Made by a program: the position numbers and the translations under genes. The notes beneath the pieces are model-generated. The model saw nothing but the letters and a program-made list of their open reading frames with translations. It was not told the origin of the DNA and ran no database searches. A DNA stretch of 64,000 nt from an uncultured Sunxiuqinia sp. GTDB taxonomy: Bacteria > Bacteroidota > Bacteroidia > Bacteroidales > Prolixibacteraceae. The stretch is taken from contig NZ_CANLZV010000001.1 in the NCBI RefSeq assembly GCF_947495665.1, forward strand, positions 124,001-188,000, in the 5' to 3' direction. This document shows positions 11,238-34,078 of this stretch, in pieces. Numbering within the stretch: the stretch's first letter is position 1; every line of letters begins with the position of its first letter.

Positions 11238-12437
11238 TTATGCCTGGTACTCAACGATTGCCTTCACACAGCGCATTGCTGCTTGCCCATCCCAAAGCTC
11301 AGGTCGTTGTGGTACACGTCCTGCCTTAATTGCCTTTTGGTATTCTTTTCGGATGCGTTCAATGTTATTGCCGACCAATACGCTGGCCCCTCCATGTTCT
11401 TTCAACGTTACCGGTCGTTCTGTATTCCAACGGAGGGTTAGGCAAGGAGTACCTAGTACACAACATTCTTCTTGTAAGCCACCGCTATCTGTGAGCATGA
11501 TGGAGGCACTCATATTAAGCCGCAACATTTCGTGGTACCCGATGGGGTGCATCAAAAAGAGATTGGTGCAGGTAATGGCCTTTTCCCATAATCCAAAGTT
11601 TTGAAGCATTTTTTGCGTACGGGGGTGAATGGGCCAGATGACAGGCATTTCGCTGGCTACTTCATCGGTGAGGAAATGGAGAATAGTTTCCAGAACTTCT
11701 TTTTGATCGACATTGGATGGCCGATGAAGGGTGAGGAGCGCGTAACTACCCCTATCTCTGCTTGGAGCTGAATCCGCTTCCTTAAGAAGGGGGATAAAGG
11801 CTTGCGCGCGGTCTGAATCCAGCAGATTGGCTTTTATTATATGGTTGATTTGAAGTGTTGATGCTTTATCCCGATTGGCTTCAAGAGTGTCAATCATAAT
11901 ATTGCCAACGAATTTGATTTTTTCATCCGGAACGCCTTCTTTTTGAAGGTTCTCATTGGATAGTTTATCCGGAGTAAGCAGGAGATCGCTCAACCGGTCG
12001 GTAACAAGTCGGTTGACCTCTTCGGGCATCGTAATATCGCCTGAACGAAGACCAGCTTCAATATGACATACCTTGATGTTAAGCTTCTTGGCAGTTACAG
12101 AACAAGCCAAGGTAGCATTGACATCACCAACCACGACCACCCAGTCTGGTTGTTCTTGCAAGCATACCTTTTCAAATCCGATCATCGTGTTACCTACCTG
12201 TTCCGCATGGCTGCCGGAACCAATCCCCAGGTTTATGTCTGCTGCGGGGATGCCCAGCGCATCAAAAAAGGCCTGGCTCATCCGGTCATCGTAATGTTGC
12301 CCGGTGTGTACCAATATATGCTGAATGTTTGGGCTGGTAGCATCGTTATGCGTTTGGTTGTATTGTTCGATGGCACGTACAAACGGAGCAATCTTCATGA
12401 AGTTAGGACGAGCCCCTACAATGGAAATGATTTTCAT
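11238..12437 (-). CDS. wecB: UDP-N-acetylglucosamine 2-epimerase (non-hydrolysing)
   Basis: 399 residues with a GT-B fold. Opens MKIISIVGARPNFMKIAPF, the UDP-binding GxRPxxxK motif, followed by HTGQHYDD near residue 43, CHIEAGLRSGD near 127, and DSGGLQEECCVLGTPCLTLR near 320, all hallmarks of the family. It interconverts UDP-GlcNAc and UDP-ManNAc. It follows an NAD-dependent epimerase gene on the same strand and probably provides an N-acetylated mannosamine-type precursor for the polysaccharide. Confidence 0.95.
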   Translation of the reverse strand: MKIISIVGARPNFMKIAPFVRAIEQYNQTHNDATSPNIQHILVHTGQHYDDRMSQAFFDALGIPAADINLGIGSGSHAEQVGNTMIGFEKVCLQEQPDWVVVVGDVNATLACSVTAKKLNIKVCHIEAGLRSGDITMPEEVNRLVTDRLSDLLLTPDKLSNENLQKEGVPDEKIKFVGNIMIDTLEANRDKASTLQINHIIKANLLDSDRAQAFIPLLKEADSAPSRDRGSYALLTLHRPSNVDQKEVLETILHFLTDEVASEMPVIWPIHPRTQKMLQNFGLWEKAITCTNLFLMHPIGYHEMLRLNMSASIMLTDSGGLQEECCVLGTPCLTLRWNTERPVTLKEHGGASVLVGNNIERIRKEYQKAIKAGRVPQRPELWDGQAAMRCVKAIVEYQA

Positions 12438-14750: not shown

Positions 14751-15908
14751 TCACTGTTTCAGAGTATCAATTAATACTTTAGATTGATTTTCAAATGCAT
14801 ATCGTCTGGATGTTTCTATTGCATTTTTTCGCACCTCATTATAGTTGGATTTCGTATCTCTGAGTTGGTTAAATAGATTATTTAATGCTGTTACACTTTT
14901 AGGTTTAAATATAAATCCATTTATCCCATCATTAATTATACTTGGAATACTGCCAACGTTTGTTGCCAGAACCAAACAGCCGCTTGCCATTGCTTCAAGA
15001 ACTACTTGAGGCAGTCCTTCGCTATAGCTTGGCAGGATGAAGATGTCGTGAGATCGGTATATGTCCAGTAGCTGAGGTCCATATGGAATATAACCGTGAA
15101 GATGTATCTTATTAGAAAGGTTATATTCTTTTATCAGTTGTTTCGTATTTGACATGTATTGTCCATCACCCACAATTGACAATTCGTAATCAATATTTGT
15201 GTTTTTTAAAGCGCTCAATAATTCATTTATTCCTTTGTTTACTTCAATACGACCAACGAATAGTAGGCGCACTCTTTCTTCTATATTCAGCGGGCGAAGT
15301 TTAGATTCATCGATAATATCATTGATATGATATCTGGAACTTACAAATTCACGGACATTATTGGATAGGTGCGCATAGCGCTTTTTTATATCAGGTCCTA
15401 ATGTTAAAACATGTGAGTTATTTTTATTGGCAAAATTTTCCACAAATGTTTCTAAATAATTAGCGATAAATCGAGCCATTGTTTTATAAATTCCACTATA
15501 TCGCATAGGGATCATTTCACGGGTATTTTGCCGAATTAGCAGACAGTGTTTTTTTTCATACCTTATTGCGTATTTCAATATTATAAGACTGATTGGAGAA
15601 GGGGTCATTACAAGTAATACATCAGACTTTTTGATGAAATCCTGAATTGTTTTTTTATTTCTAAGCCAATAGAATGGTAGTTTTAAAAACAATGCAAAAA
15701 GGTTTGAATAGCTATTTAATTCAAAAAAATGATTGTATTGCTGGATTAAATAGGAACTTTTTAATGAATCTTCTGTCCCTAATCTACCAATAAATTGAAA
15801 ATCGAAATGAGAAGATATTTCATTGAGTAATAATGTGTATATATCTTCACAAAACAAAAGGTTTTTCTTTTTTAAATATCTTGTTTCTAAATAAACTCCA
15901 ACTTTCAT
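14751..15908 (-). CDS. Family 4 glycosyltransferase
   Basis: 385 residues, GT-B fold. The C-terminal nucleotide-sugar domain has LLFVGRIEVNKGINELLSAL (near 230), LSIVGDGQYM and the E-x7-E signature SYSEGLPQVVLEAMASG (near 310). The N-terminal half is AT-rich and divergent, as usual for acceptor-binding domains. Probably adds one residue of the repeat unit on the cytoplasmic side of the membrane; donor sugar unknown. Confidence 0.9.
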   Translation of the reverse strand: MKVGVYLETRYLKKKNLLFCEDIYTLLLNEISSHFDFQFIGRLGTEDSLKSSYLIQQYNHFFELNSYSNLFALFLKLPFYWLRNKKTIQDFIKKSDVLLVMTPSPISLIILKYAIRYEKKHCLLIRQNTREMIPMRYSGIYKTMARFIANYLETFVENFANKNNSHVLTLGPDIKKRYAHLSNNVREFVSSRYHINDIIDESKLRPLNIEERVRLLFVGRIEVNKGINELLSALKNTNIDYELSIVGDGQYMSNTKQLIKEYNLSNKIHLHGYIPYGPQLLDIYRSHDIFILPSYSEGLPQVVLEAMASGCLVLATNVGSIPSIINDGINGFIFKPKSVTALNNLFNQLRDTKSNYNEVRKNAIETSRRYAFENQSKVLIDTLKQ

Positions 15909-15982: not shown

Positions 15983-17065
15983 TTAACTATTTAGTAGTAG
16001 TAGGTATTGCTGTAATATACTTTCTGTCTTAAATATATTTTCTGCTATATTTTTATTTGAAATTCCTTCATTTAATAAATCATTTGGATGGGAATTGAGA
16101 GCATAGCTCAGACTTTTAGATATTGATTGTGCATCAAATGGGTTAGATAGAAAATTGGAATTTAGAATTAGCAATGGGACATCAGAAACCCGGGTGGCAA
16201 TAACAGGTTTACCAGCGACCATTGCTTCACAAACCGTATTGGGTAATCCTTCCAGAATACTGAATAGACCTACGGCATCAGCTTGATGTATTTTTTTATT
16301 GATATCTAAAGTTGGAGGATGAAAAGAGAAAACGTTATCTAACTGATATTTTTCAATCTTTTTTAGTGCGACAGACTTTGAATCATCATGATTATCATCG
16401 CCATACCAATCAATTTTCAATTTATTTTTTTCTTCTTTTGTTAGTAGGTTTACAGCTTCAACCAAACAATTTAGGTTTTTTAAATACCGATGACTAGCAG
16501 CAATAACAATGTTAAATTTGCCATCTTTTTGTGGGGTGAATTTTTCGTTCGATTGCCATTTTTTAAAGTCAACAATATTGTATATTACTTTGCATTTTCT
16601 GGAAGCAAGAAGCGGATTGACTTTTCTAACCATTTTAATATTTGCATGAGAGTTGGCTACAACATAATCAGCAAATAAATGAAACCATCGATAGGCTTTC
16701 AATTTGAAAGATTTCAGGATGGCTGGGTTTGCACTTCGTTCTCCAACGACTAATTTCCATTTCCTCCTTGGGAAACCTGCTATTTCACAAATGAAGTTTG
16801 GTGCCTCCAAAAAGGATAAAACAGAATTAAAGTTCCCATGACGTATGTATCGGCGCATTTTTAATAGCCGCATGAAATGATTTGGAGCAATAATTTCATG
16901 CACTGCAATATTATTTTCATCGAGGATATCTTTAAAAAAGTTGATGCGGTGGTATACCAAAAAAGAAACCTTATGCCCATTTTGCTTTAAGCCAACAGCC
17001 AAATTAACAAGTTGACGTTGTGCACCACCAGAGCCAAGACTGTCAATAACGCAGAGTATTTTCAT
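15983..17065 (-). CDS. Family 4 glycosyltransferase
   Basis: 360 residues. Begins MKILCVIDSLGSGGAQRQLVNLA, a classic GT4 N-terminus with the GGAQR acceptor loop. The C-terminal half has FSILEGLPNTVCEAMVAGKPVIAT (E-x7-E region, near 275). Its start codon overlaps the stop of the upstream polymerase-like gene by 4 nt, so the two are translationally coupled. Donor and linkage unknown. Confidence 0.9.
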   Translation of the reverse strand: MKILCVIDSLGSGGAQRQLVNLAVGLKQNGHKVSFLVYHRINFFKDILDENNIAVHEIIAPNHFMRLLKMRRYIRHGNFNSVLSFLEAPNFICEIAGFPRRKWKLVVGERSANPAILKSFKLKAYRWFHLFADYVVANSHANIKMVRKVNPLLASRKCKVIYNIVDFKKWQSNEKFTPQKDGKFNIVIAASHRYLKNLNCLVEAVNLLTKEEKNKLKIDWYGDDNHDDSKSVALKKIEKYQLDNVFSFHPPTLDINKKIHQADAVGLFSILEGLPNTVCEAMVAGKPVIATRVSDVPLLILNSNFLSNPFDAQSISKSLSYALNSHPNDLLNEGISNKNIAENIFKTESILQQYLLLLNS

Positions 17066-18423
17066 AAGAACTTGAGCATCGAATATATAATCAATAAGCC
17101 AGAGTACATAAATATATATTTAAGTTTATTCTTTATGATTATTTGTTTTGTTTGCTGTGATTGAATATAGACGAATAAAATGTACATGATGGGGTAGACG
17201 GCCATGATTCGTCGAACGTTAATATTGGAAGAGTTGGCCAATAAAAACAAGGCCATAAAACCCAACAGCCAAATGCTTAACTTTGGGAGTTTTTTATAGT
17301 ATTTCTTCAGATTTATGAAAGAAATAAAAACTACATAGCCCCAAAAAACAGGAGCTATGCCTGCTACAATAGCCAAGAGTATTTGAGGAATAGAGTTTGA
17401 ATTTGCTAGCTGAAACCAGGGTGGAAAGGGTGAGATTTGAGAAAATGCGGTAACCGATAGTTGCTTAATACCAAAAGGCAAACGATAAAGTATAGCTCCG
17501 AGCCCTCCTGAGTCTTCTGCACTTAAAGAAGTAGCTTCGGCATATCGATCTATGACCATAAATACAGTACTAAGAGAAGAGAGTATATATTTGATTGATA
17601 AGGCTGCTATGAAAACAACGATAACTGTCGTTAGAAAGTAATAGAATCTTCTGTATTTATTATTACCAGCCTTAGTATACAAAAAGAGCAAAGGAAAGAA
17701 GGAGAATGCAATACCACTTTCGAACCTGAACTCAAGTGTAATGAATTGCAATAGAATTAAAAATAGTAATCTATTTATGGTAAATGGACGATGTACAAGA
17801 TATATAGCTATTGTAAATAATAGTGTAATATGAATATCTCTTAGAAGCCAAGGCGAAAAAGATAAAACATAGGCAAAAAATAAATAAAACAAAGTGTATT
17901 TGAATGCTAATTCTTTTTTTACATAAAATAATAACGTTTTATAGATGAATAGATTTATAAGTACTGCTAAAGCAGAAACGTTTATTATCTGAAATAAAAC
18001 AGTGTTTCCTGTTAAATATTTGTTTGCAATAAATGCTAATGTACCAAAAAGAAAATAAGCTCCTTCCTGTTCAATATGTTCCCTGTAAATAAAACATGAA
18101 TTAAAGATAGCATTTATCGACGGTTTATTTCCTAACTGTTCAGCTACTGTATAAAAATGGTCTTGATCTGGATAAATAAAAAAACTGTTTACTGCTGTAT
18201 ATCCCCAATAAGCAAGCATTGTGTATGAAGTGTATATAAGAAAAGCTAAGTAGAAAATAGATAGTAGATGAATGAGTTCAGCTTTATTTTTATTGGATAA
18301 CCAATAAGAGATTCCAGTACCAATAATAAAAAACGAGATAAGAGAAACCGTTGTTGACATATCGCCACTAAAAAGCGATATACAAAGCATTACAACGACA
18401 CTTAAAAATAGAAAAATAATCAT
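17062..18423 (-). CDS. Wzy-like polysaccharide polymerase (multi-pass membrane protein)
   Basis: 453 residues with roughly 11-12 hydrophobic segments spread over the whole length and a soluble loop containing YPDQDHFYTVAEQ around residues 84-96. Sequence identity is not diagnostic in this class; the call rests on topology, length, AT-rich composition and its place among GTs and a Wzx flippase. The family would polymerise repeat units on the periplasmic face. A membrane glycosyltransferase is the main alternative. Confidence 0.65.
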   Translation of the reverse strand: MIIFLFLSVVVMLCISLFSGDMSTTVSLISFFIIGTGISYWLSNKNKAELIHLLSIFYLAFLIYTSYTMLAYWGYTAVNSFFIYPDQDHFYTVAEQLGNKPSINAIFNSCFIYREHIEQEGAYFLFGTLAFIANKYLTGNTVLFQIINVSALAVLINLFIYKTLLFYVKKELAFKYTLFYLFFAYVLSFSPWLLRDIHITLLFTIAIYLVHRPFTINRLLFLILLQFITLEFRFESGIAFSFFPLLFLYTKAGNNKYRRFYYFLTTVIVVFIAALSIKYILSSLSTVFMVIDRYAEATSLSAEDSGGLGAILYRLPFGIKQLSVTAFSQISPFPPWFQLANSNSIPQILLAIVAGIAPVFWGYVVFISFINLKKYYKKLPKLSIWLLGFMALFLLANSSNINVRRIMAVYPIMYILFVYIQSQQTKQIIIKNKLKYIFMYSGLLIIYSMLKFL

Positions 18424-18652: not shown

Positions 18653-19777
18653 TTATATATTTTTAATAGTTTCCTTTAATGCAAATTCTTGGACCCAATA
18701 TTTACCTTCAACAAATTCATACTCTCCTTTTTTTATTCGTTGATAAAATCCAGGTACCTCATTTATTTTCAATTGTTCTGCTGTATCTATTCCAATAAAA
18801 ATTGAGGATTCTATTATAAAATATTGATTTAATTTTTCGCTAAATAGTAAATCTGTTGCTAAAAAATTTGCTTTAAAAAGTTCCTTAACTTTAAATGCTA
18901 AGTCTAGAGCTTTTGGCTCAATCGCCTTTTTAACAACATTGCCTGCTCCAGAAGCTTTAAAATCTCCTTTTTTGGGATACCGATAATAGCCAAATAATTT
19001 ATCTCCTGTAACCATAATTCTTAGATCATATGTGGCATCACTAATAAACTCTTGAAAAAGAATATAGTCTTTTTGACGTTGAAACTGGAAGTATGTTTTT
19101 GCACCTTTTGATGAAAATGCTTGATTTATAAGTTTGATTGCTTGACGTTTATTCGCAATCTTATTTACTCCAAACGAAGCTGAACCAGTATTAAGTTTTG
19201 AGATAATTGGGTATTTTGCTTTTTCTGCATATTCCAAAGCATCTTCTTTAGAATGAGATACAAAAGTAGGTATTTCTGGTAGATTAAAATGTTGGTATAA
19301 ATAATGCGCATTTACTTTATCTTCGTATGTCCAGATCTCATCAAATGATGGTAAGCACTTTTTATTCATTAGTTTATCTAGCACATATATTTTGTTAGTG
19401 GCAATATCTTGAGTAGCAGGATCTGAATTAGTATGCCAAACAATTACATCAAATTTTTTGGCTTTTTCCAGCCAATCATGTCTGTATATATCATAGTACT
19501 CGTACGAAATATTGTTGTTCTTTAAAAATTTCTCATATTTCGGATAATAGGCACGATTGCTCACATATCCTTCATATTCATATCCATCTTTAACAATCCC
19601 AACGCAAATGTTTGGATTCTCATTGTTTTTTAATACTACTTTATCTGCTTTATATAGTGTATCCTCCAATTTTTCTAATGGTATAATACTTCCATTGGCT
19701 ACACGTTTTTTTATATAAAAATTCCTAATAAATGGAATTAAAAATACTATCTGTTTGATTATTTCTTTTGCAAGCAT
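18653..19777 (-). CDS. ATP-grasp ligase, possible amino-acid-to-sugar ligase
   Basis: 374 residues. A hydrophobic N-terminal stretch (IVFLIPFIRNF, residues 10-20) may tether it to the membrane. The ATP-grasp core spans about 155-350: KYPIISKLNTGSASFGVNKI (nucleotide lysine and loop), ILFQEFIS and YDLRIMVTGDKLFGYYRY, then the Mg-site strand FLATDLLFSEKLNQYFIIESS. ATP-grasp enzymes activate a carboxylate as acyl phosphate and join it to an amine. Its downstream neighbour on the genome map is the opine-dehydrogenase gene, so I infer it couples a uronic acid carboxyl and an amino-acid amine. Substrates unproven. Confidence 0.75.
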   Translation of the reverse strand: MLAKEIIKQIVFLIPFIRNFYIKKRVANGSIIPLEKLEDTLYKADKVVLKNNENPNICVGIVKDGYEYEGYVSNRAYYPKYEKFLKNNNISYEYYDIYRHDWLEKAKKFDVIVWHTNSDPATQDIATNKIYVLDKLMNKKCLPSFDEIWTYEDKVNAHYLYQHFNLPEIPTFVSHSKEDALEYAEKAKYPIISKLNTGSASFGVNKIANKRQAIKLINQAFSSKGAKTYFQFQRQKDYILFQEFISDATYDLRIMVTGDKLFGYYRYPKKGDFKASGAGNVVKKAIEPKALDLAFKVKELFKANFLATDLLFSEKLNQYFIIESSIFIGIDTAEQLKINEVPGFYQRIKKGEYEFVEGKYWVQEFALKETIKNI

Positions 19778-20044
19778 AAATTAATTCTTAAAATAGATAA
19801 TTTGACTGATCAAAGAAAGTGAAGATAATCCAAAATTATCTTTTGTCTGTTTTAGGTGATTAAAATATTTAGTGGGATATGCAATAATTATTGTGTATAA
19901 TTTTAAAAGGTGGAATAATGAATGTAACAGCTTCAAATCTTTCATGTTGCTTAATTATTCCTTTTTTTTATCAAATGATTTTTCCAATTAAGTATTTCTT
20001 TGATCCTATGAATTATACTTAATTTAATAAATTATGAAAATCAT

Positions 20045-21013
20045 TTATTTCACTTGAAATGCTCTGTTTTGAAAATCATTTATTTTGGAATCAATAATTA
20101 CACCTTTTTTAACGATTAGTGCATTATTTAAAACATCATTAACTTTGTTATTTATTAAAAAATTAATGTAGTAAGAAACAATTGAGCTGAGCGATTTCGA
20201 AATTGTTTTATAAAACAAGCTTGGTGTGTGATCAACAACATAATGAGTTATTCCGTTTTGTACATAAGTGGGATTCTCTATTGTTGTTGGTACCGATGTT
20301 TCTATTGCTCCATTTTTATCGCAACTTATGTCAATGATTAATGTATCTTTTTTCAGATATTTTAAATCGTTTTGATAAATAATATGATCTTTTCTCGTAG
20401 TGTCCCAAGTAATTGCATTAACAATAACATCAAAATTGAATAGTTCTTCCCTAAAAAGTTGTTCTGTTTTTCTATCGTAAACTGAAATATTAGCACCCAT
20501 GTAATTTAGAATTTTCATTGCCCCTCTTGCAATATTCCCTCTCCCTAAAATAGCGACTTTTGTTTCATATGGGAAAAGACCATGTAATAAAAAGGCATGA
20601 ATTATAGCAGCTTCACCTGCAATCTCATTATTTCTATAGAAAGTATGTCTTCCTCTGTCAAACATTTCTTCCCATGCAAATGCTGTTAGTTCATTTTTTA
20701 TTAAAATATCTGTAATACCTCTATTTTGAACTGCATGTACCCATCCAAAAATAGTTTGACATTTTAATTTATCAATATAGTCAGCATCGCCAATCTTGGG
20801 ATCGCATATAATATCTTTTGTTAAAACTTCATCTCTAGATACAATATTCACTCCTAGATTTATATATTCTTGATCTGTATATCCCAAATTTAGTCCATAT
20901 CCTTTTTCAAGAAAAATATATTTTGGGGTATCAATGTTTTTAATATCCTCAGGGAGCAATGTTCTTCTATTTTCATTTTCTTTGCGACTAATTGGAAAAC
21001 CTACAGTATTCAT
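20045..21013 (-). CDS. N5-(carboxyethyl)ornithine synthase-like opine dehydrogenase
   Basis: 322 residues in the alanine dehydrogenase/PNT superfamily. The N-terminal half (VGFPISRKENENRRTLLPED) matches AlaDH/PNT N domains. A Rossmann loop GRGNIARG lies at 157-164 with Asp180 ending the second strand. The C-terminal stretch around VVDHTPSLFYKTISKSLSS resembles carboxyethyl-ornithine synthase (ceo) of Lactococcus rather than true alanine dehydrogenase. Known members reductively condense pyruvate with the side-chain amine of ornithine or lysine. Next to the ATP-grasp gene and inside a glycan locus, it probably makes a carboxyethyl amino acid for glycan decoration (inference). Confidence 0.75.
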   Translation of the reverse strand: MNTVGFPISRKENENRRTLLPEDIKNIDTPKYIFLEKGYGLNLGYTDQEYINLGVNIVSRDEVLTKDIICDPKIGDADYIDKLKCQTIFGWVHAVQNRGITDILIKNELTAFAWEEMFDRGRHTFYRNNEIAGEAAIIHAFLLHGLFPYETKVAILGRGNIARGAMKILNYMGANISVYDRKTEQLFREELFNFDVIVNAITWDTTRKDHIIYQNDLKYLKKDTLIIDISCDKNGAIETSVPTTIENPTYVQNGITHYVVDHTPSLFYKTISKSLSSIVSYYINFLINNKVNDVLNNALIVKKGVIIDSKINDFQNRAFQVK

Positions 21014-21281
21014 AGTATTTGATTTTTAGTTATTTATTTTTTGTATAGACAAAAGAGACTTTTTCCCATTATCATTCTAGATATCTTCAATTTAATTGTG
21101 TTGTTTGCTAAATACTATTTATAGACCCCTATTGAAGAAATACATAATCTACATATCTGTTTGTAGTATTGTTTGGGTAGCAATATTCTAACTTGTAGCT
21201 AATGTTTTTTCTTTACAAGATTTAATCCAACGGTAGCTAAACGAACCTGGACGGTTATAGATGGCAATTTTCATCTTTTTT

Positions 21282-22433: not shown

Positions 22434-23975
22434 CTATTTTGATAAGGGGTGAGACTTCATTATTCTCCGACAAGCACTTGAAGAAAACTCCAATACTTTT
22501 TTCCTTTCAAATTTAGATAAGCCCAATATCAGAGAGAAGATAATAACTATTAAAGAACATGTTATAAGTGCTATAGATTTTACAAAGATACTATGTTCGC
22601 TTAAGTTTGTTAAAACCATTGAAATAGGAAAGCAGACAACTAGAACCTTAAAGCTAGGAAACAGTACTTTTAATAAGTAGGATTTAAGATCCAAGCTAAT
22701 TGTTTTTGTTGCTAATATAAGAAGAGCAAAGAGGTTAATAAGCTCCATACCTATCATTACAATAAATACGACATAAAATTTGAATCCATGGGATAACAAT
22801 AAATATGATATTGGGAAATTTAGAAATAGAATGCTTGCATCGATTAATTGATATGTTTTTATTTTTCCTGTTGCTTTAAATAAAGAATCAAGTGGGCCAT
22901 GAAAAATCCGTATTAATATAAAAACAAGAATTAGTTGGACAAAAATTGTAGTATAGCTCGGAACTGTTTTCAACCAAATATTTAGTAAAAAATCGGTAGA
23001 GGATAAGACAGGTAATATCAATGCTAAAGAAACGAAAAAAGAAGCCTTTGAAGTAAAAAATATTAGTTTAAAAAACTCATCACTTTTTTTTTGAGCGTAA
23101 AGTTGTACTATACGAGGATTCGCTGCAGTTATAAGATTGGTTATAAATTGAGTTGTTGCGGATCTGACTTGGTATGCTATTCCACGAGCAGCATTGATAG
23201 AGGTTCCTCCAAAAAGGTTTAATAAGATGTTTCCTCCTTCATTGGCTAGAACGTAAGCTGAATTACCAAAGAAGTTCCATCCGGCAAAACTTCCCATTTG
23301 TTTAAATAATTTTAAATTCCAAGAAAATTGATATTTACAAAAGGGAAAGTTTTTTTTACAATAAATTGTGCTTAAAAGCCGAGTAATTAAAGATACAATT
23401 AGAATTAGTATAGCATAGAGGATTAACTTATCAAAACGAAGGTAACCCAGTAAAATGACAACCATCAATTTTAGAAAACCATCTAAGATTGAGATGTAAG
23501 CATATACATTCATTTTTTCTTTAGCTATGATAGTCGCATCATAGGGTACTGTCATAATAGTAATAATCGCTGAAAACACAGAAAGGTGAAATACTACTTG
23601 AGCTGCAAACAGCCTTTCAGGCTCTATTACCAACTTATTATTAATGTACCAAAGGCCAATAAATTCAGCGAAGAAAAGAAAAGTTGCAGAGAGTATAATA
23701 TGAATATTTATACTCATACTAAAAATCTTGGTTACTCCGCCAAATTCACTTTTACCTACTTCATAATTTAAAAACCTCTGAGTTGCAGATGCAAATAGTC
23801 CCCTCAAAGAAGAAAACATTGCGACAACACCACCGACTACGTTATATATACCATAATCATTTATCCCTAACTCTTTTAGTAAAATTCTTGTTGTATAGAA
23901 TGAGATGCCCATCATTATGAGCATTCTCATATAAAGGAAAGCAGTGTTTTTAGCAATGCGTTTGTTAGTAGACAT
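22434..23975 (-). CDS. Wzx-type oligosaccharide flippase
   Basis: 513 residues from the ATG at 23975, which shares one base with the TGA of the upstream wbpP-like gene (TGATG); this coupling makes it preferable to the track's further-upstream start. About 12-14 membrane segments, MATE/MVF-type, with the FYTTRILLKELGINDYGIYNVVGG opening typical of bacterial polysaccharide flippases. Exports the lipid-linked repeat unit to the periplasm for the Wzy-like polymerase in the same locus. Confidence 0.9.
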   Translation of the reverse strand: MSTNKRIAKNTAFLYMRMLIMMGISFYTTRILLKELGINDYGIYNVVGGVVAMFSSLRGLFASATQRFLNYEVGKSEFGGVTKIFSMSINIHIILSATFLFFAEFIGLWYINNKLVIEPERLFAAQVVFHLSVFSAIITIMTVPYDATIIAKEKMNVYAYISILDGFLKLMVVILLGYLRFDKLILYAILILIVSLITRLLSTIYCKKNFPFCKYQFSWNLKLFKQMGSFAGWNFFGNSAYVLANEGGNILLNLFGGTSINAARGIAYQVRSATTQFITNLITAANPRIVQLYAQKKSDEFFKLIFFTSKASFFVSLALILPVLSSTDFLLNIWLKTVPSYTTIFVQLILVFILIRIFHGPLDSLFKATGKIKTYQLIDASILFLNFPISYLLLSHGFKFYVVFIVMIGMELINLFALLILATKTISLDLKSYLLKVLFPSFKVLVVCFPISMVLTNLSEHSIFVKSIALITCSLIVIIFSLILGLSKFERKKVLEFSSSACRRIMKSHPLSK

Positions 23976-25054
23976 CAGTGACTTAATTGTTTGAAATTTT
24001 CCCAATACCATTCACACGCTTCTTCCAATCCTTTTTTTACAGAGTATTCCGGGAGATAAGCTAGCAAGGAATTTCCTTTTTCAATGGAAGCCAAAGAGTG
24101 GGGCACATCACCTTGTCTTTTTGCGCCATATTTGAATTTGACATCCGCAATGCCCGGGTCGAACTTGGCCAGGTTATCTTTTAAGATTTGGGCTAATTCG
24201 TTGAGCGAAGTGCGTTCACCAAAGGCCACATTGAAGACTTCGGAGAGGGATGTACTTGAACTCGCTGATTTCGTTGTACTTTCTTCACAATGTTTTGCGT
24301 CATACTGGATGCGCTTTTCGACAATCGATTTGGTAGGAGTAATGGCGGCTAGTTGATTGGCTTGAATAACATTCTCGATGTAGGTGAAGTCGCGGGAGTA
24401 GGAACCATCTCCATTAATCTGTGGACTTTCGTGCTTGATCAATGCCGATACAAATTTCGGTATTACTGCAGCATAGGCACCATTCGGATCCTGGCGACGG
24501 CCAAAGACATTGAAGTAGCGCAAGCCGATGGTTTCAATACCGTAAATATCCGAAAAGTTTTTGGCAAAAAGTTCATCTACATATTTGGTAATGGCGTAAG
24601 GGGATAGCGCATTGCCAATTTTATGTTCTACTTTTGGCAGGTCAGGATGATCACCATAGGTGGAAGAACTGGCTGCATACACAAAACGTTTCACATTGGC
24701 TTCTTTGGCCGCATGTAGCATTTTTACGAAGCCACCAATATTTACATCCGTACTGGTCATTGGGTCAGCAATAGAGCGCGGAACACTTCCCAGTGCAGCC
24801 TGATGCAATACATAGTCGCAACCTTCCACCGCTTTTTGGCAATCCTCGTAATTGCGAATGTCGCCTTCAATTAAGGTAAATTCAGAGTGTTTTAGCGCTT
24901 GGACAAGATTTTCACGTTTGCCGGTTGCAAAATTATCCAGGCAAATCACGGTGTTGTTTTGTTCTAGCAAACGGTCAACCAGATTGGAGCCGATAAACCC
25001 GGCTCCACCAGTTACCAATACTTTCTTATTTTCAATGATGCTATTTTTAGTCAT
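23975..25054 (-). CDS. UDP-HexNAc(A) C4-epimerase (WbpP/TviC-like)
   Basis: 359 residues, extended SDR. GGAGFIG at 16-22, Ser-rich active-site strand AASSSTYGD around 128-135, Tyr153/Lys157 in PYAITK. The QDPNGAYAAVIPKF and RDFTYIENV segments match WbpP/TviC. A low-complexity insert of about 25-30 residues (region EKRIQYDAKHCEESTTKS, near 250-280) sits where the family normally runs straight to VFNVAFGERTSLNEL. Follows the dehydrogenase gene by 18 bp. With it, this enzyme would make UDP-GalNAcA from UDP-GlcNAc, as in Vi antigen synthesis. Confidence 0.9.
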   Translation of the reverse strand: MTKNSIIENKKVLVTGGAGFIGSNLVDRLLEQNNTVICLDNFATGKRENLVQALKHSEFTLIEGDIRNYEDCQKAVEGCDYVLHQAALGSVPRSIADPMTSTDVNIGGFVKMLHAAKEANVKRFVYAASSSTYGDHPDLPKVEHKIGNALSPYAITKYVDELFAKNFSDIYGIETIGLRYFNVFGRRQDPNGAYAAVIPKFVSALIKHESPQINGDGSYSRDFTYIENVIQANQLAAITPTKSIVEKRIQYDAKHCEESTTKSASSSTSLSEVFNVAFGERTSLNELAQILKDNLAKFDPGIADVKFKYGAKRQGDVPHSLASIEKGNSLLAYLPEYSVKKGLEEACEWYWENFKQLSH

Positions 25055-25072: not shown

Positions 25073-26359
25073 TTATAGTCTCCCGTCTACAAGCTGTTTG
25101 TCCCAGATACCTTTAATATCGTATATGACTGCATCGTGACTGTTCCGTAGTTTTGAAATATCAATTTGTTTAAACTCATTGTGAGCAACTGCCAATACTG
25201 CTGCATCATAGCTCTGGTTAGCGTAATCTTCAACAAGCGATAAACAATACTCATGTTCAACTTCCTCTTTGTTGGCCCATGGATCATAAACATCGACATC
25301 ACAGCCGTATTGTTTGAGCTCATTGATGACATCAATAGCCTTTGTATTGCGAATATCCGGACAGTTTTCTTTAAATGTAATACCAAGTACCAGTATCTTA
25401 CTGTTTTTTACGGCGTGTCCTTTGTTTATAAGAAGTTTCACAATTTGGGAGGCGATCCAGGCACCCATCCCGTCATTCATACGACGACCAGCAAGGATAA
25501 TTTCCGGGTTGTAACCAGTTTCCTGCGCTTTTTGCGCCAGGTAGTAAGGATCAACACCAATACAGTGTCCTCCAACTAAACCCGGGGAGAAGGGGAGGAA
25601 GTTCCATTTTGTTCCAGCAGCTTCCAGCACGTCTTTCGTGTCAATTCCTAAATTGCTGAAAATTTTGGCCAATTCGTTCACAAAAGCAATGTTAATGTCA
25701 CGCTGTGAATTTTCGATGACTTTGGCCGCCTCAGCTACTTTGATGGAGGGAGCCAAGTGGGTTCCGGCGACAATTACAGATTGGTATAGTTGATCCACTT
25801 TTTGACCAATCTCTGGGGTTGAACCCGAGGTGACCTTTTTAATTTTAGTTACGGTGTGTTCTTTATCCCCCGGGTTGATACGTTCAGGTGAATATCCGAC
25901 AAAGAAGTCGGTGTTAAATGTGAGTCCGGATACCTTTTCAAGCACAGGAACACAATCTTCCTCCGTTGCTCCTGGATATACTGTTGACTCGTAAATTACA
26001 ATATCGTTTGGTTTCAAAACTGAACCAACGGTTTCTGAAGCTTTGACTAAAGGAGTAAGAACAGGACGGTTGTTTTTATCTGTTGGCGTTGGCACTGTTA
26101 TAATGTAGTAGTTGCAGTCTGCAAGTGCTTCGGGCGAGGTGGTTAGGTTTAAGCCTGTTGGCGAGCTGCCTTTTAGCACTGATTGTAAGTTGTCGTCTGC
26201 TACTTCCAAAGTGGCATCATGTCCCGCTTTAAGTTCATCAATGCGTGCTTGGTTTATATCAAAACCAACAACTGGGTATTTTTTTGCAAATTCGACAGCT
26301 AGTGGTAAACCAACATAGCCCAATCCAATGACGGCAATTTTTGTTTCTTTTAATATCAT
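25073..26359 (-). CDS. UDP-N-acetylhexosamine 6-dehydrogenase (WbpO/TviB-like)
   Basis: 428 residues. GLGYVG at 12-17 binds NAD; catalytic Cys266 lies in VGGHCIGVDPYYLA; ESTVYPGATEE and the RDINIAFVNEL helix agree with the UDP-GlcNAc/GalNAc dehydrogenase branch, not UDP-glucose dehydrogenase. Oxidises C6 of the UDP-HexNAc to a uronic acid. Paired with the epimerase 18 bp downstream. Its product offers the free carboxyl group that the ATP-grasp enzyme of this locus could amidate (inference). Confidence 0.92.
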   Translation of the reverse strand: MILKETKIAVIGLGYVGLPLAVEFAKKYPVVGFDINQARIDELKAGHDATLEVADDNLQSVLKGSSPTGLNLTTSPEALADCNYYIITVPTPTDKNNRPVLTPLVKASETVGSVLKPNDIVIYESTVYPGATEEDCVPVLEKVSGLTFNTDFFVGYSPERINPGDKEHTVTKIKKVTSGSTPEIGQKVDQLYQSVIVAGTHLAPSIKVAEAAKVIENSQRDINIAFVNELAKIFSNLGIDTKDVLEAAGTKWNFLPFSPGLVGGHCIGVDPYYLAQKAQETGYNPEIILAGRRMNDGMGAWIASQIVKLLINKGHAVKNSKILVLGITFKENCPDIRNTKAIDVINELKQYGCDVDVYDPWANKEEVEHEYCLSLVEDYANQSYDAAVLAVAHNEFKQIDISKLRNSHDAVIYDIKGIWDKQLVDGRL

Positions 26360-27263: not shown

Positions 27264-27638
27264 TCAAACCATGGGGTTGATCAGATTTATCGTATGGTCT
27301 ATATTTTGAAAATCGCTCGTGTTGGCTGTCACCAAGTCCAGTTTTGAACTGCTTGCCGTTGCAAGAATGATCGCATCAGGCAGTTTGATTTTGTGCTGAC
27401 GTCGGATGAGAATCACTTGGTCAACAATTGTTTGTTCCAGTTGGATGACTTCAAAGACATTGCAAATTCGTTCCATGAGCTGCTGCTCTGCTTGATCTTT
27501 AAATGGATACCCCAAGGCCTCCATGTAAGTGATTACCGATATATACAGTTTCATGTCCTTGTTGGCAATCTTTTCCAAGGGTAACTTTTTCTGCGATAAA
27601 TAGATTAAAATATTGGTATCAACGAGCTTCCCATTCAT
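27264..27638 (-). CDS. PIN-domain ribonuclease toxin (VapC-like)
   Basis: 124 residues. The acidic metal-binding set of PIN domains is visible: Asp7 (LVDTNILIY), Glu40 (ITYMEALGYP), Asp88 (KLPDAIILATA) and Asp109 (NTSDF). VapC-type toxins cleave tRNA or rRNA. Starts 20 bp inside the 3' end of the antitoxin gene, in the usual antitoxin-first order. Lies between two sugar dehydrogenase genes in the polysaccharide locus. Confidence 0.88.
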   Translation of the reverse strand: MNGKLVDTNILIYLSQKKLPLEKIANKDMKLYISVITYMEALGYPFKDQAEQQLMERICNVFEVIQLEQTIVDQVILIRRQHKIKLPDAIILATASSSKLDLVTANTSDFQNIDHTINLINPMV

Positions 27639-28172: not shown

Positions 28173-29609
28173 TCACCCTTTTCCGATGCTTTTCAACTCA
28201 AAGCCGATGGTTGTCAGTGCTTTTCGGTCAAGGATGTTCCGTCCATCGAAAACGAATGCCGGTTTGAGCATGCTGTCGTAAACTTTCTGCCAGTCGTAGG
28301 TTTTAAATTCATCCCATTCGGTGAGTACGGCCGTAGCATGTGCTTTGGCCATGGCCTCATAAGGATCAGCATGAACCTGTACCAGTTGTTGGAGTTCCTC
28401 TGTGGCAATGGCCTTTTCCGGGTGTTGCTGGTATAAGTATTCCAGATCGCGGAAAATCTGCGCTTTGGAAACCTGAGGGTCGTACACATGAATCTCGGCC
28501 CGGTCTTGTAACAGTTCGTCGGCTACGTAAATGGCAGCACTTTCGCGGGTATCGTTGGTGTCCTTTTTAAAGGCCCAGCCCAGAAAGGCAATCTTTTTTC
28601 CCGACACGGTATTGAATAAGCTGGAAATGATTTGTGTGGCAAAACGACGTTTTTGGTAATCGTTCAGTTTCACCACCTGTGCCCAGTAGTCGGCTACTTC
28701 GGGCAGGTTGAAGTGCTGGCAGAGGTATACCAGGTTCAGAATGTCTTTTTGGAAGCAGGAGCCGCCAAAGCCCACCGAAGATTTCAGGAACTTGGGCCCA
28801 ATGCGGCTGTCCATCCCAATAGCATGAGCCACTTCGTCTACATCTGCTCCGGTACGTTCGCACAATGCTGAAATGGAGTTGATGCTGGAGATGCGCTGCG
28901 CCAAAAAGGCGTTGGCTGTTAATTTGGATAATTCGGAAGACCAGATGCGGGTGGTAACGATTTGGTCGCGTGGAATCCAATTGGCGTAAATGTTCGCTAA
29001 GGCTTGTTCGGCTTGTTGACCGGCCTCATTATCTTCGCTGCCAATTAACACGCGGTCGGCATGCAATAGGTCCTGAATGGCTGTTCCTTCCGCCAGAAAT
29101 TCGGGGTTGGACAGCACGGCAAATTGAGGGGCTTTAGGGTTGGTGGACTGGTTGGAAGAGTCCAGAATGGTCCGGATGGCCTGGGCGGTACGTACCGGCA
29201 GGGTGGACTTTTCAACTACAATTTTGTTGGTGGTGGCGACTTCCGCAATTTGGCGGGCACACAGCTCAACATATTTGAGGTCGGCAGCCATGCCTTTTCC
29301 AACTCCGTAAGTTTTTGTAGGGGTGTTTACGGAGATAAAAATCATTTCCGCCTCGCGAATGGCACCTTCCACATCCGTTGAAAAAAAGAGGTTACGCCCG
29401 CGCGCTTCAGCCACCACTTCGGGTAGGCCCGGTTCGTATACCGGAAGTTTGGAGAGATCCTTGTCATTCCAATCCGCAATGCGCTGGTCGTTGATGTCAA
29501 CCACGGTGACCTGGATATGTGGACATTGTTGTGCAATGACGGCCATGGTTGGCCCGCCAACGTACCCTGCACCAATGCAGGCAATTTTCTTGATTTCAGT
29601 TGGAAACAT
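28173..29609 (-). CDS. UDP-glucose 6-dehydrogenase, long (eukaryote-like) form
   Basis: 478 residues. NAD loop [10 protein letters not shown] near residue 11, Cys285 in [12 protein letters not shown] as catalytic nucleophile, and an extended C-terminal nucleotide-binding domain ([19 protein letters not shown]). The length and the GGSCFQKD motif place it with the animal/plant-type UGDH also found in Bacteroidota. Makes UDP-glucuronate from UDP-glucose, a second uronic-acid donor for this locus. Starts about 220 bp below the Wzz gene. Confidence 0.92.
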
Positions 29610-31231: not shown

Positions 31232-31612
31232 TTATTGCTTGGGTGTCCATTTCTCAGAATTTTGACTCATCTTAATTATCATGGCGATGATATGTTCAAA
31301 CTGATCGTAAAGCTCATCATGGATCGCTTCGTTGATGTATTTAAACGAGTGAGAAAAATCCAGCCAAACTTGAGTTTCGGCCGCCTCCGCTTCGGAGTCC
31401 GACAATTTAGAAATGAAGTTCTTGGGGTATCGTCTTTTTCTCCATGCTTCAGCAAGGTTTGCACAAACCGACCTGGAACTTCTTCTGATTTGATTGGTCA
31501 ACGCATGCCTCTCTTCAGCAGGAAAAGATTGGGTTAACTGATGAATCCTTAAGGCAGCCTGGTAAGCCTCCTGATAGACTTTCAATTCTTTATGTGACCG
31601 TATCTTTTCCAT
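31232..31612 (-). CDS. Four-helix-bundle protein (23S rRNA IVP-like)
   Basis: 126 residues. The pattern HKELKVYQEAYQAALRIHQL, followed by ALTNQIRRSSRSVCANLAE and EAAETQVWLDF, is diagnostic of the four-helix-bundle family first seen in 23S rRNA intervening sequences and common as free-standing genes in Bacteroidota. Biochemical function is not established. It lies alone between wzz and the SLBB export gene, flanked by repeat-rich DNA on the wzz side. Confidence 0.88.
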   Translation of the reverse strand: MEKIRSHKELKVYQEAYQAALRIHQLTQSFPAEERHALTNQIRRSSRSVCANLAEAWRKRRYPKNFISKLSDSEAEAAETQVWLDFSHSFKYINEAIHDELYDQFEHIIAMIIKMSQNSEKWTPKQ

Positions 31613-31675: not shown

Positions 31676-34078
31676 CTATCTTAACACCGCGGCAATGGCG
31701 ATGGCAATGGAGGAGAAGGCACTGGCAACGGATAACCATCGCGAGGTTTGATCTCCGGCGGGGCGGTCAGGCTTTTGCGGAACAACAATCTGACAGCCGG
31801 GCTCGGGGCTCGGATAGTGTCTTCCGATGAATCCCTTGGTTACCTTGGTGGTACCATCGCTGTAAATGATGAATACTTTTCCTTTCTTGGCTTTCGGACT
31901 AAATCCTCCTGAGCGGTTGATGTAGTATTTCAGCGAGCGGTTTTCTTGGTAAGCCAAACCTACAGGGTTCAATACTTCTCCGGAAACTTTAATCTCCTGG
32001 GTCACCTCGGGAACCAGCAGCTCGTCGCCTTCACGCAAGACATAGTCGTAGATTGACCCTGGATTCTCGAGGATGTCATCCAGGCGTAGTTCCAGTTTAT
32101 AATGGTCATCCATCTGCGCTTCGGCCGATTTTAGCAGGCTATCGGGCATGGCGGTCAGCAGCGATTCATTGATGGCCTCATCATCGGTTCGCAGGCGTCT
32201 CAGGGTGGCTCCTTTGCTGAAAGCATGGGGCGTTAAGCCTCCGCAACGCTTGATCAAGTCTGAAACCCGTTCGTTTTTATTGCTGATGCTGTATGGGCCT
32301 GGATAAACCACTTCACCCTCGATGGTAACCGTCCGTTGGGTGTTGTAAGATGGTGCTTTTCGCACATAAATGTAATCGAAAGGCTGAATTTTGAATTCGG
32401 CATCCTCCGAGTTGATGTTCAGGTCGCGACTGATGTTGAACTGGTACAAGTCGGCAAGTTCGTTGGAAACTTGGGCTGCTGATTCATAATCGTGACGACG
32501 GGCCAGTTCGATGAACGATTCGCTGGCCGCTTCCGTAAATCCACCGGCCAAAAATACCAGGTCTTTTAAGCTCATGTTTTCCCGGTAAGGATATTCTCCG
32601 GGGTATTGCACCTGACCGTAAATCTTGATAAACCGGGCTTCGCGCATGCTGAATACGTCCTGAATAATGACATGGTCTTCCCGTTTCAGATCGAGATCAT
32701 TCTTTCCTCCCAGTATTTCGGATACTTCGAAGGCAATGGTTTGCGGACTCAGGTCTTTGCCCAGGCGAATGATAACACCACGGTTGCTGAATACGCTTTC
32801 TTTAACCCCATCGGCTTTGGCAATCAGCTCCGAAAGTTTCATCCCTTCGGTGAGGGCAAACGTTCCGGGGCGGAACACGGCCCCTTCGATACTGACACGG
32901 TTTTCATAGCGGTCAATGATTTCACCGGCCTCAATGAAGTCTCCGTTTTGTAAGGTAAACGAATCAAATTCATTTTGTGTGATGTCCAGTACCTGAAATT
33001 GTTTGCCGGTTGTGCGGGTAATGGACAGGCGTTTGCGGTATGCCTGGTTTGAAAAGCCACCGGTATAACGGAGCAGGTCGTTCAGCTTTTCGCCTTCCTG
33101 CAGCTCGAAATAGCCTTTGCGCTTGAAGGAGCCGGAAGCTTCGACCCGTATGTCATAGGTTGGAATAAACAGGATGTCCTGGTCGCGCAGCACAATGTTG
33201 TTGGAGGCGTTGGCATGAATCAGGAAGTCGTACACATCAATCTCGGCGATTACTTTGTTTTGACGAATGACCTGAATGTTGCGGAAGGAGCCATTTTCGT
33301 TGGGACCGCCCGAGAGGTAAAGGGCATTAAAGGCGGATGCCGTTGCCGGCAGGGTGTAGGTGCCCGGCGTATATACTTCCCCAATGACATTGACCTTGAT
33401 GGAGCGGAGGTTGCTCAGCCCGATCTCTGCAAAGGTGTTGGGTTTGTCGCCGCCCATGCCACTGTAAATGGCAACCAGACGCTGACGGATTCGTTTTTCT
33501 GCCTCGCGGAAATCAATACCGGCTACCTGAACAGGCCCCAGATCCGGAATCTGGACATTGCCGTTGGCATCAACCAATAGCTGATAGCTTTGCTGGCTGG
33601 CTCCCCAAATGTTGATCATGAGCTGGTCGTTGATCCCCAGTACATAGCTATCCGGAACCGGAATATTAACCGAGGGCTCAAAGCTTAAGTTCTGGGTATT
33701 GAAGAAATGGAAACCAAAAATCTTGGATGCATTGGAGGTGGTGTCCACAGGCATCTTTTGCGACAGGGAATCTTGCGGCTTGGTAATCTCCTCCGGAGAG
33801 ATTGGTTTAAGGCCGTTTTGTTTGCCGTTGAGTTGCAGCTCGCTGATCCGGGTTTTTAGCTGGCTGATTTGAGAAGGTGTAGCTCCACGTAGCCGGGCCA
33901 TTTCAATGGCCTGATCCATGGTGAGCCCTCTTTTTTCGATTTCCTGCACAATCTGCTGTACTTGTTGATCGCTGAGTTTGTTAACATCTACCTGCGTTGG
34001 CATTTGTGCCGAAGGAGTCAGGTAGCAAACCAGCAGGCCGATGATCCAGATAAATTTTAGTGCTTTACGTAATAGCAT
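31676..34078 (-). CDS. SLBB-domain polysaccharide export protein (Wza-like)
   Basis: 800 residues. Signal peptide (LKFIWIIGLLVCYLTPSAQ), an N-terminal helical region with DQQVQQIVQEIEKRGLT, then a polysaccharide-export domain (about 130-230; GINDQLMINIWGASQQSY) and a series of about five to six SLBB domains to residue 770 (for example VEASGSFKRKGYFEL, KIYGQVQYPGEYPY, IEGEVVYPGPYSISN, VSGEVLNPVGLAY). A hydrophobic C-terminal helix (WLSVASAFSSIAIAIAAVL) follows. Forms the outer-membrane/periplasmic export conduit of the locus. Confidence 0.93.
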   Translation of the reverse strand: MLLRKALKFIWIIGLLVCYLTPSAQMPTQVDVNKLSDQQVQQIVQEIEKRGLTMDQAIEMARLRGATPSQISQLKTRISELQLNGKQNGLKPISPEEITKPQDSLSQKMPVDTTSNASKIFGFHFFNTQNLSFEPSVNIPVPDSYVLGINDQLMINIWGASQQSYQLLVDANGNVQIPDLGPVQVAGIDFREAEKRIRQRLVAIYSGMGGDKPNTFAEIGLSNLRSIKVNVIGEVYTPGTYTLPATASAFNALYLSGGPNENGSFRNIQVIRQNKVIAEIDVYDFLIHANASNNIVLRDQDILFIPTYDIRVEASGSFKRKGYFELQEGEKLNDLLRYTGGFSNQAYRKRLSITRTTGKQFQVLDITQNEFDSFTLQNGDFIEAGEIIDRYENRVSIEGAVFRPGTFALTEGMKLSELIAKADGVKESVFSNRGVIIRLGKDLSPQTIAFEVSEILGGKNDLDLKREDHVIIQDVFSMREARFIKIYGQVQYPGEYPYRENMSLKDLVFLAGGFTEAASESFIELARRHDYESAAQVSNELADLYQFNISRDLNINSEDAEFKIQPFDYIYVRKAPSYNTQRTVTIEGEVVYPGPYSISNKNERVSDLIKRCGGLTPHAFSKGATLRRLRTDDEAINESLLTAMPDSLLKSAEAQMDDHYKLELRLDDILENPGSIYDYVLREGDELLVPEVTQEIKVSGEVLNPVGLAYQENRSLKYYINRSGGFSPKAKKGKVFIIYSDGTTKVTKGFIGRHYPSPEPGCQIVVPQKPDRPAGDQTSRWLSVASAFSSIAIAIAAVLR

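Follow-up and report, generated by a model that had tools for sequence, protein, structure and literature searches.

A carboxyethylornithine synthase-type enzyme beside an ATP-grasp ligase in a Bacteroidales polysaccharide locus: a recurrent pair predicted to decorate uronic acids

A 64,000-nt stretch of the genome of an uncultured Sunxiuqinia sp. (the window, in which the coordinates below are positions) carries a polysaccharide operon on its minus strand, in the middle of which lie the two genes that are the subject of this report: one for an enzyme of the N(5)-(carboxyethyl)ornithine synthase (CEO) type and one for an ATP-grasp ligase. The host genome assembly comprises 4.73 Mb in 70 contigs. 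The operon extends from an export-protein-like gene (31676-34078; EpsE model 134.6 bits, cut-off 262.65) down to a WecB-type epimerase gene (11238-12437; model score above the cut-off), and its core also encodes a TviB-like dehydrogenase, a TviC-like 4-epimerase, a flippase, and GT4 glycosyltransferases. An earlier reading of the letters alone (the sequence-only reading) had proposed that the first enzyme makes a carboxyethyl amino acid and that the second joins it to a uronic acid. Both open reading frames (ORFs) are present where it placed them, on the strand that it gave, and the ATP-grasp gene is the next one downstream of the CEO gene, across a gap of 267 bases. The features of the locus are listed below.

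20045-21013, minus strand: CEO-type opine synthase of the window-type clade, 322 aa; predicted catalytic residues R16, K73, H93, D232
18653-19777, minus strand: RimK/LysX-like ATP-grasp ligase, 374 aa, by profile and predicted fold
21147-21274, minus strand: remains of the decayed 5' end of a further ATP-grasp gene, immediately upstream of CEO, by sequence matches
25073-26359, minus strand: UDP-N-acetylhexosamine 6-dehydrogenase, TviB/WbpO type (uronic acid supply); NF011729 574.7 bits, cut-off 592; TIGR03026 subfamily above cut-off
23975-25054, minus strand: 4-epimerase, TviC/WbpP type (UDP-GalNAcA supply); best model NF011728 TviC, 376 bits, below the cut-off of 760
28173-29609, minus strand: nucleotide-sugar dehydrogenase, most like UDP-glucose 6-dehydrogenase (ugd-like; second uronic acid route); TIGR03026 331.9 bits, cut-off 189.8; best equivalog TuaD, 335 of 700
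22434-24011, minus strand: flippase (Wzx); PF01943, PF01554
21282-22376, minus strand: GT4 glycosyltransferase, by family search
17062-18423, minus strand: candidate polymerase (Wzy), without a family match; membrane-protein-like sequence, by eye
15983-17065, minus strand: GT4 glycosyltransferase, by family search
14751-15908, minus strand: GT4 glycosyltransferase, by family search

The two routes to uronic acids that had been noticed in the operon are both recovered, one as the TviB-like and TviC-like genes and the other as the nucleotide-sugar dehydrogenase whose best equivalog is TuaD. G+C content is 29-32% from the flippase to the candidate polymerase, as against 43% for the window, and this low value fits the expectation for an exchanged variable region; the minimum (29%) falls at the CEO-type and ATP-grasp genes.

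In terms of family, the product of the CEO-type gene matches the AlaDh/PNT superfamily (PF01262, 7.6e-21; PF05222, 8.8e-12), and its predicted structure (pLDDT, the predicted local distance difference test score, of 88.6) is closest in fold to alanine dehydrogenase (AlaDH; E = 4.8e-24). On the AlaDH equivalog model it scores 90.8 bits, short of the cut-off of 391.85; the proteins of L024 and L025 (L-numbers denote fetched loci) score 461 and 521. Its sequence identity is 34-36% to proteins annotated in RefSeq as N(5)-(carboxyethyl)ornithine synthase (from E. coli, Vagococcus, and Lactococcus), 27.5% to one from Streptomyces, and about 23-26% to annotated AlaDHs; RefSeq proteins with this name are its best named relatives in a plasmid collection. 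The lactococcal enzyme condenses pyruvate with ornithine or lysine in an NAD(P)H-dependent reaction; in our judgement, the database name as applied to CEO-type proteins rests mostly on similarity. The superfamily domains, the score far below the AlaDH cut-off, and the 34-36% identity bear out the CEO-type identity that the sequence-only reading had assigned.

A profile search of genome contigs for CEO yielded 558 loci, of which the best 80 were kept; these fall into a close clade of 18 (L037-L053 and L071; 49-66% identity), termed window-type, and 62 of a longer form (28-35%), and none comes from a Providencia or Proteus genome of known O-antigen structure. A tree was built from 43 proteins; it includes those of all close loci except L040 and the partial L053 (16 of 18) and 13 of the 62 long-form ones. 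The sequence-only reading would have been contradicted by a dehydrogenase that grouped with AlaDHs; instead, the window protein falls in a CEO branch of 36 rows that stands apart from seven AlaDH-type rows with support of 100/100. Within the CEO branch, support is 82/89 for the window-type clade, 100/99 for the long form, and 99/85 for the window protein with L037. The AlaDH model is the best model for all seven AlaDH-type rows, with two scores above the cut-off (L024, L025), two just under it, and three at 278-287 bits. Residues R16, K73, H93, and D232, the predicted counterparts of the AlaDH pyruvate-site and catalytic residues R15, K75, H96, and D270, are invariant across the CEO-type rows: 17/17 of the window type, 3/3 of the lactococcal type, and 16/16 of the long form, 36 in all. 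Asn128 is present in 35 and Asn199 in 36 of these 36 rows, whereas the AlaDH-type rows carry Met and Gly/Ala there. On the strength of tree, equivalog cut-off, and residues, AlaDH was rejected as the identity of the gene product.

The ligase resembles the RimK family (TIGR00768, E = 6.7e-19; 68.3 bits, below the cut-off of 143.4), and its structural model, which is of moderate confidence (mean pLDDT 74.1, built on three sequences), has a predicted fold closest to RimK, ArgX, and LysX (E = 5.5e-14, template modelling score 0.51). Asp309 and Glu323 are invariant in a seven-member ligase alignment. At E 0.01 the ligase has no match to the TupA-like family PF14305, nor does the window's own genome contain one. 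The sequence-only reading was right to call this protein an ATP-grasp enzyme and the next downstream neighbor, but its putative membrane anchor fares poorly: the best 19-residue Kyte-Doolittle mean, at the N-terminus, is 1.06 and the model shows a helix at residues 2-27, which points to a peripheral membrane helix at most. The ligase profile matches 28 of 395 genomes of the window's phylum, its own included; a scan of viral contigs for this ATP-grasp gave 48 stretches that fit a pattern and no relatives.

The pairing of the two genes recurs in unrelated bacteria. On the E. coli plasmid NZ_AP027746.1, the gene order is priming transferase, "hypothetical protein", CEO, flippase, glycosyltransferase, an unnamed protein (weakly GT2-like, E = 0.016), GT2, EpsG, epimerase, and nucleotide-sugar dehydrogenase (ugd-type), with export, phosphatase, and kinase genes on the other strand, past an IS91. 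The "hypothetical protein" is a homologue of the window ligase (28% over 290 residues, E = 7e-29; RimK family, 1.6e-7), its gene overlaps the CEO gene by 8 bases, and the CEO protein is 35% identical to that of the window. Five of 5426 complete E. coli genomes have the pair, two of them identical copies on plasmids and three, at 70.8%, in chromosomal islands rich in insertion sequences. In these islands (L017, L018, L019), the pair, a short gene annotated as an ATP-grasp fold amidoligase, and a flippase gene lie amid insertion sequences, with the appearance of a decaying polysaccharide cluster. A 4.6-kb contig of a Clostridia metagenome-assembled genome (L037, possibly misbinned) has the order TviB-flippase-CEO-ATP-grasp, with 66.7% (TviB), 65% (CEO), and 43% (ligase) identity to the window, and in a Verrucomicrobia metagenome-assembled genome (L055), a long-form CEO gene adjoins a RimK-type ligase gene, with flippase and PGA_cap genes upstream. 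The latter is the one locus with an ATP-grasp of the kinds considered here among the 62 long-form loci in the best 80 of 558, one of which (L061) has a nucleotide-sugar dehydrogenase; by reading, none of seven long-form CEO genes from the window's phylum was seen in a glycan locus.

Linkage was quantified across the window-type loci, which were assigned to glycan synthesis by reading their ORFs and, for some, by family searches. Twelve of the 18 read as polysaccharide clusters, and nine, all among these twelve, have ATP-grasp genes of three kinds within the fetched flank:

RimK type: L037
TupA type (PF14305): L039, L041, L042, L045, L049, L052, L053
Sugar-transfer type (PF14397): L039, L041, L045, L049, L051

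These loci hold 16 ATP-grasp proteins, 11 confirmed by Pfam and five found by local profiles; the contigs of L037, L040, L051, and L053 are about 4 kb long. An ATP-grasp is the immediate neighbor of CEO in 8 of the 12 glycan loci (p = 6e-4; the L051 ligase gene, convergent with the CEO gene, is counted), and ten immediate neighbors are ATP-grasps, where shuffling of the genes within each locus gives an expectation of 3.3 (p = 2e-5, with leave-one-locus-out profiles). TupA-like enzymes occur in 7 of the 12, encoded next to CEO in L039, L042, L049, L052, and L053, one gene away in L045, and two away in L041. The six non-glycan window-type loci (L044, L046, L047, L048, L050, L071) have no ligase; five look free of glycan genes, and in L050, from Massilia, there are glycosyltransferase-like genes close by on the opposite strand. 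Uronic acid genes were matched in 8 of the 12 glycan loci, with only an epimerase in two (L045, L053), and in none of the other six window-type loci, counts that for glycan loci stand without a control.

Three more window-type loci, L229-L231, came from two order-wide searches of 295 genomes each; they were found regardless of ligases and are polysaccharide-like by reading, and one has an ATP-grasp gene (L231, TupA type, overlapping CEO by 4 bases). L229 is similar in gene order to L038, and L230 to L043. As controls, we used polysaccharide loci centered on a gene of the TviB type, 29 from the window's order and 11 from that of L042, so hosts are only partly matched; ATP-grasp genes were found in 1 of 20 from relatives (284 ORFs) and 2 of 20 from the orders of L049 and L042 (300 ORFs). 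Glycan CEO loci thus carry an ATP-grasp in 10 of 15 cases versus 3 of 40 controls (Fisher p = 2e-5), or 10 of 21 versus 3 of 40 with all window-type loci as the denominator (p = 6e-4), in comparisons whose profiles were built largely from CEO-adjacent proteins, the leave-one-locus-out scheme applying to the neighbor test and not to the controls. One control locus, L250, weakly matches the CEO profile and encodes a true AlaDH (485.8 bits). Matches to PF14305 above the cut-off come from 5 of the 61 genomes of relatives and from none of 14 named control genomes. The pairing is therefore recurrent, across phyla and above the level of control polysaccharide loci.

The ligases themselves appear to have been recruited more than once. 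Those of the window, L037, and L055 group together (97/92), with the E. coli ligases elsewhere in the tree; a single clade of CEO-linked RimK-type ligases was rejected (approximately unbiased test, p = 5.6e-5). Since the CEO-linked ligases are not monophyletic and the ligase that accompanies the long-form CEO of L055 belongs to the window's clade, repeated assembly of the pair, with at least two pairings, is the simplest reading; one old pairing followed by losses may also account for the scatter. In the window, the remnant at 21147-21274 consists of two pieces in two frames that resemble the N-terminus of the L011 protein (12/22, E = 8e-5; 7/19, E = 0.05). It reads as the broken 5' end of an ATP-grasp gene of the kind in L036, directly upstream of the CEO gene, and suggests ligase turnover in the window locus. 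The gap at 19778-20044 contains a short open frame (minus strand, about 55 codons) to which no function is assigned; by eye it is perhaps a gene remnant. Two further small genes in the polysaccharide region, at 27264-27638 and 31232-31612, look by eye like genes for a PIN-domain protein and for a four-helix-bundle protein of the 23S-intervening type.

The analysis establishes identities, catalytic residues, clade membership, and recurrent linkage; the amino acid, the direction of ligation, and the product are predictions. We favor a two-enzyme decoration module in a Wzx/Wzy-type polysaccharide locus, with a probability of roughly 0.55, in which a carboxyethyl amino acid is made and then amidated onto a uronic acid. 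As judged from its family, its fold, and the conservation of its active site, the CEO-type enzyme would carry out a reductive condensation between pyruvate and the amine on the side chain of a diamino acid, giving an N-(1-carboxyethyl) amino acid. The ATP-grasp enzyme would then amidate a uronic acid with this product, as in the Providencia O14 antigen, after which the decorated repeat unit would, as is general for such loci, be flipped and polymerized.

The proposed chemistry has precedents. Uronic acids amidated by amino acids occur in several O-antigens and capsules (PMC10609480), and the sequence-only reading had named a carboxyethyl-lysine uronamide from Providencia; this is found in the O-antigen of P. 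rustigianii O14, which contains N-epsilon-[(S)-1-carboxyethyl]-N-alpha-(D-galacturonoyl)-L-lysine (PMC10609480, where the structure is cited from 2003). In this amide, galacturonic acid is bound to carboxyethyl-lysine through the alpha-amino group of the latter, in line with the proposal, and at the level of structure O14 carries the predicted kind of product. In the C. jejuni HS:2 protein Cj1438, a C-terminal TupA-like ATP-grasp domain forms an amide on capsule glucuronic acid, but with serinol phosphate or ethanolamine phosphate as the amine (PMC11800379), and the window ligase is of the RimK/LysX rather than the TupA type. The amino acid ligases RimK, LysX, and ArgX are nearest to the window ligase in fold and profile; however, it scores below the family cut-offs and lies in a glycan locus, and its acceptor and donor are expected to differ. 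The lactococcal CEO shares with the window enzyme its superfamily branch, 36% identity, and the four catalytic residues, so that the pyruvate chemistry is expected to be the same, yet it belongs to a separate clade and differs at six positions, and the three CEO genes on Lactococcus and Vagococcus plasmids, unlike that of the window, have no ligase or polysaccharide-synthesis genes annotated alongside. Among the hits and passages covered in the literature searched, which leaves out most subscription journals, no gene, enzyme, or enzyme pair for carboxyethyl-lysine uronamides was named, and nothing contradicted the earlier statement that no such pair is described.

Several observations weigh against this reading of the pair as a dedicated uronamide module. 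The Lys column is aligned to AlaDH with uncertainty, and Lys is present in only two of the seven AlaDH-type rows. All three lactococcal-type rows differ from the window clade at Q96, H123, E130, D204, D261, and H262, positions that are invariant or nearly so across window-type and long-form rows and that appear to line the amine site; because of these six differences, the window protein is not filed as a strict N5-carboxyethylornithine synthase, and its amine should not be read off the database name. The usual ATP-grasp metal motif is E-x-N, and at this position the window ligase keeps Glu323 but has Ser in place of Asn, its aligned relatives likewise being without Asn. None of the 20 regions fetched from 27 other genomes with the ligase has a CEO gene within about 7 kb on each side (less at contig ends), which indicates that the ligase family is general rather than dedicated to CEO, with CEO-linked members a minority. 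In 5 of the 15 glycan CEO loci (L038, L040 with only 4 kb, L043, L229, L230), no ATP-grasp of these kinds was found; CEO genes of the same clade occur without a ligase or evident glycan genes in Clostridium and Carnobacteriaceae; and L039 has CEO and ATP-grasp genes with no uronic acid gene matched within 10 kb. The original proposal is thus partly supported: it gains from the phylogeny, the recurrent pairing, and the fit of the known alpha-amino amide, and loses from the CEO loci without an ATP-grasp and the ligase relatives without CEO.

Some of these points would suit other explanations. In one, the ligation runs in the reverse direction: the carboxyethyl amino acid is activated by the ATP-grasp enzyme at one of its carboxyls, which is then joined to an amino group on a sugar. 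RimK and LysX, the nearest folds, ligate amino acids, and the L039 locus would fit, as would a known amide of N-(1-carboxyethyl)alanine on Qui4N in P. alcalifaciens O35 (PMC10609480). We consider this direction unlikely, as the window, L012, and 7 of the 9 window-type loci with ATP-grasps (all but L039 and the 4-kb L051) carry uronic acid genes, the TupA precedent activates the uronic acid (PMC11800379), and the window operon showed no sign of an amino-sugar pathway, although no search was aimed at one.

The two enzymes could also serve separate pathways: what the ATP-grasp attaches would then be a common amino acid, an amine, or a peptide, and the product of CEO would be used elsewhere or attached otherwise. 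The 20 RimK-type relatives without CEO and the presence of CEO in a LicD/CTP-transferase cluster without an ATP-grasp in L038 (and, by reading, L229) speak for such a division, which is nonetheless quite improbable given linkage above chance in both the shuffle and the controls, with three ligase kinds and two CEO clades, and the overlap of the paired genes in E. coli. It is more doubtful still, in our estimate, that the dehydrogenase is AlaDH-like or saccharopine-type, using another keto acid or no amino acid partner and only supplying a simple precursor. Superfamily and fold are those of AlaDH, and the clade profile has weak matches to saccharopine dehydrogenases (E = 0.014-0.028) as well as a match, at E = 3e-5, to alpha-aminoadipic semialdehyde synthase; set against this are the 100/100 separation from the AlaDH-type rows, the score far below the AlaDH cut-off, and the distinct residues at Asn128 and Asn199.

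For the uronamide module, we regard lysine as the most likely amine, with ornithine or diaminobutyrate possible. Some loci offer hints as to the amine. In L049, lysC and lysA sit between ugd and the flippase gene of the CEO operon; as evidence for lysine this is weakened, since only one lysA match is present in that genome and the lysC-lysA pair may be a mere housekeeping copy. In L042, a diaminobutyrate aminotransferase-like gene follows CEO and TupA (EctB 545.2 bits, cut-off 552.2; two broader models above cut-off). In L038 (2106-9938), CEO shares its cluster with a pair of LicD genes, with genes of the IspD-like and CTP-transferase/oxidoreductase kinds, and with a gene for a PhnW/BhcA-like aminotransferase (all aminotransferase models below cut-off), but with no ATP-grasp of the searched kinds; L229 looks alike by reading, and this content hints at a phosphate- or phosphonate-linked carboxyethyl amine.

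Other gene associations were seen in the fetched loci. In L039 (642-6534), Ddl-like, serine/alanine racemase-like, and MurF-like genes adjoin ATP-grasps of the sugar-transfer type, a content that would suit the assembly of a peptide-like side chain on the glycan. The roughly 466-residue proteins encoded near CEO in L043 (12933-14333), L051 (645-2051), and L230 (8227-9627) are possible adenylate-forming ligases; two of the three match AMP-binding weakly, below the cut-off, and that of L230 has no match. Of the 20 fetched ligase loci, six have a PGA_cap-like gene and four have sugar-transfer ATP-grasps. Glycan loci with a PGA_cap (CapA-like) gene close to CEO or to an ATP-grasp of the RimK or sugar-transfer type are L035, L036, L038, L039, L055, L205, L210, L211, L213, L215, and L217, the calls resting on a local profile for the six ligase loci (partial in L211), on Pfam for L038, L039, and L055, and on reading for L035 and L036. 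PGA_cap is possibly a second partner of the RimK-type and sugar-transfer ligases.

More broadly, and tentatively, CEO-type enzymes may constitute a general, horizontally moving carboxyethylation cassette for surface glycans, in which the clade is combined with the attachment chemistry of each locus: RimK-, TupA-, or sugar-transfer-type ATP-grasps for amides and perhaps LicD with CDP activation (L038, L229) for phosphate- or phosphonate-linked carboxyethyl amines. Amine supply genes, such as that for the diaminobutyrate aminotransferase in L042, would be included. If true, this view would explain carboxyethyl-lysine and related substituents and would predict ones not yet seen.

The linkage is broader than could be told from the letters of one locus, and it brings three ATP-grasp kinds together in a single predicted function within glycan loci. 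The recurrence of the pair in unrelated bacteria makes it a testable candidate for the making of a long-known decoration, as a small, directly assayable gene set for uronamides that could allow this decoration to be predicted from sequence in capsule and O-antigen typing, and it would give CEO-type enzymes a second role.

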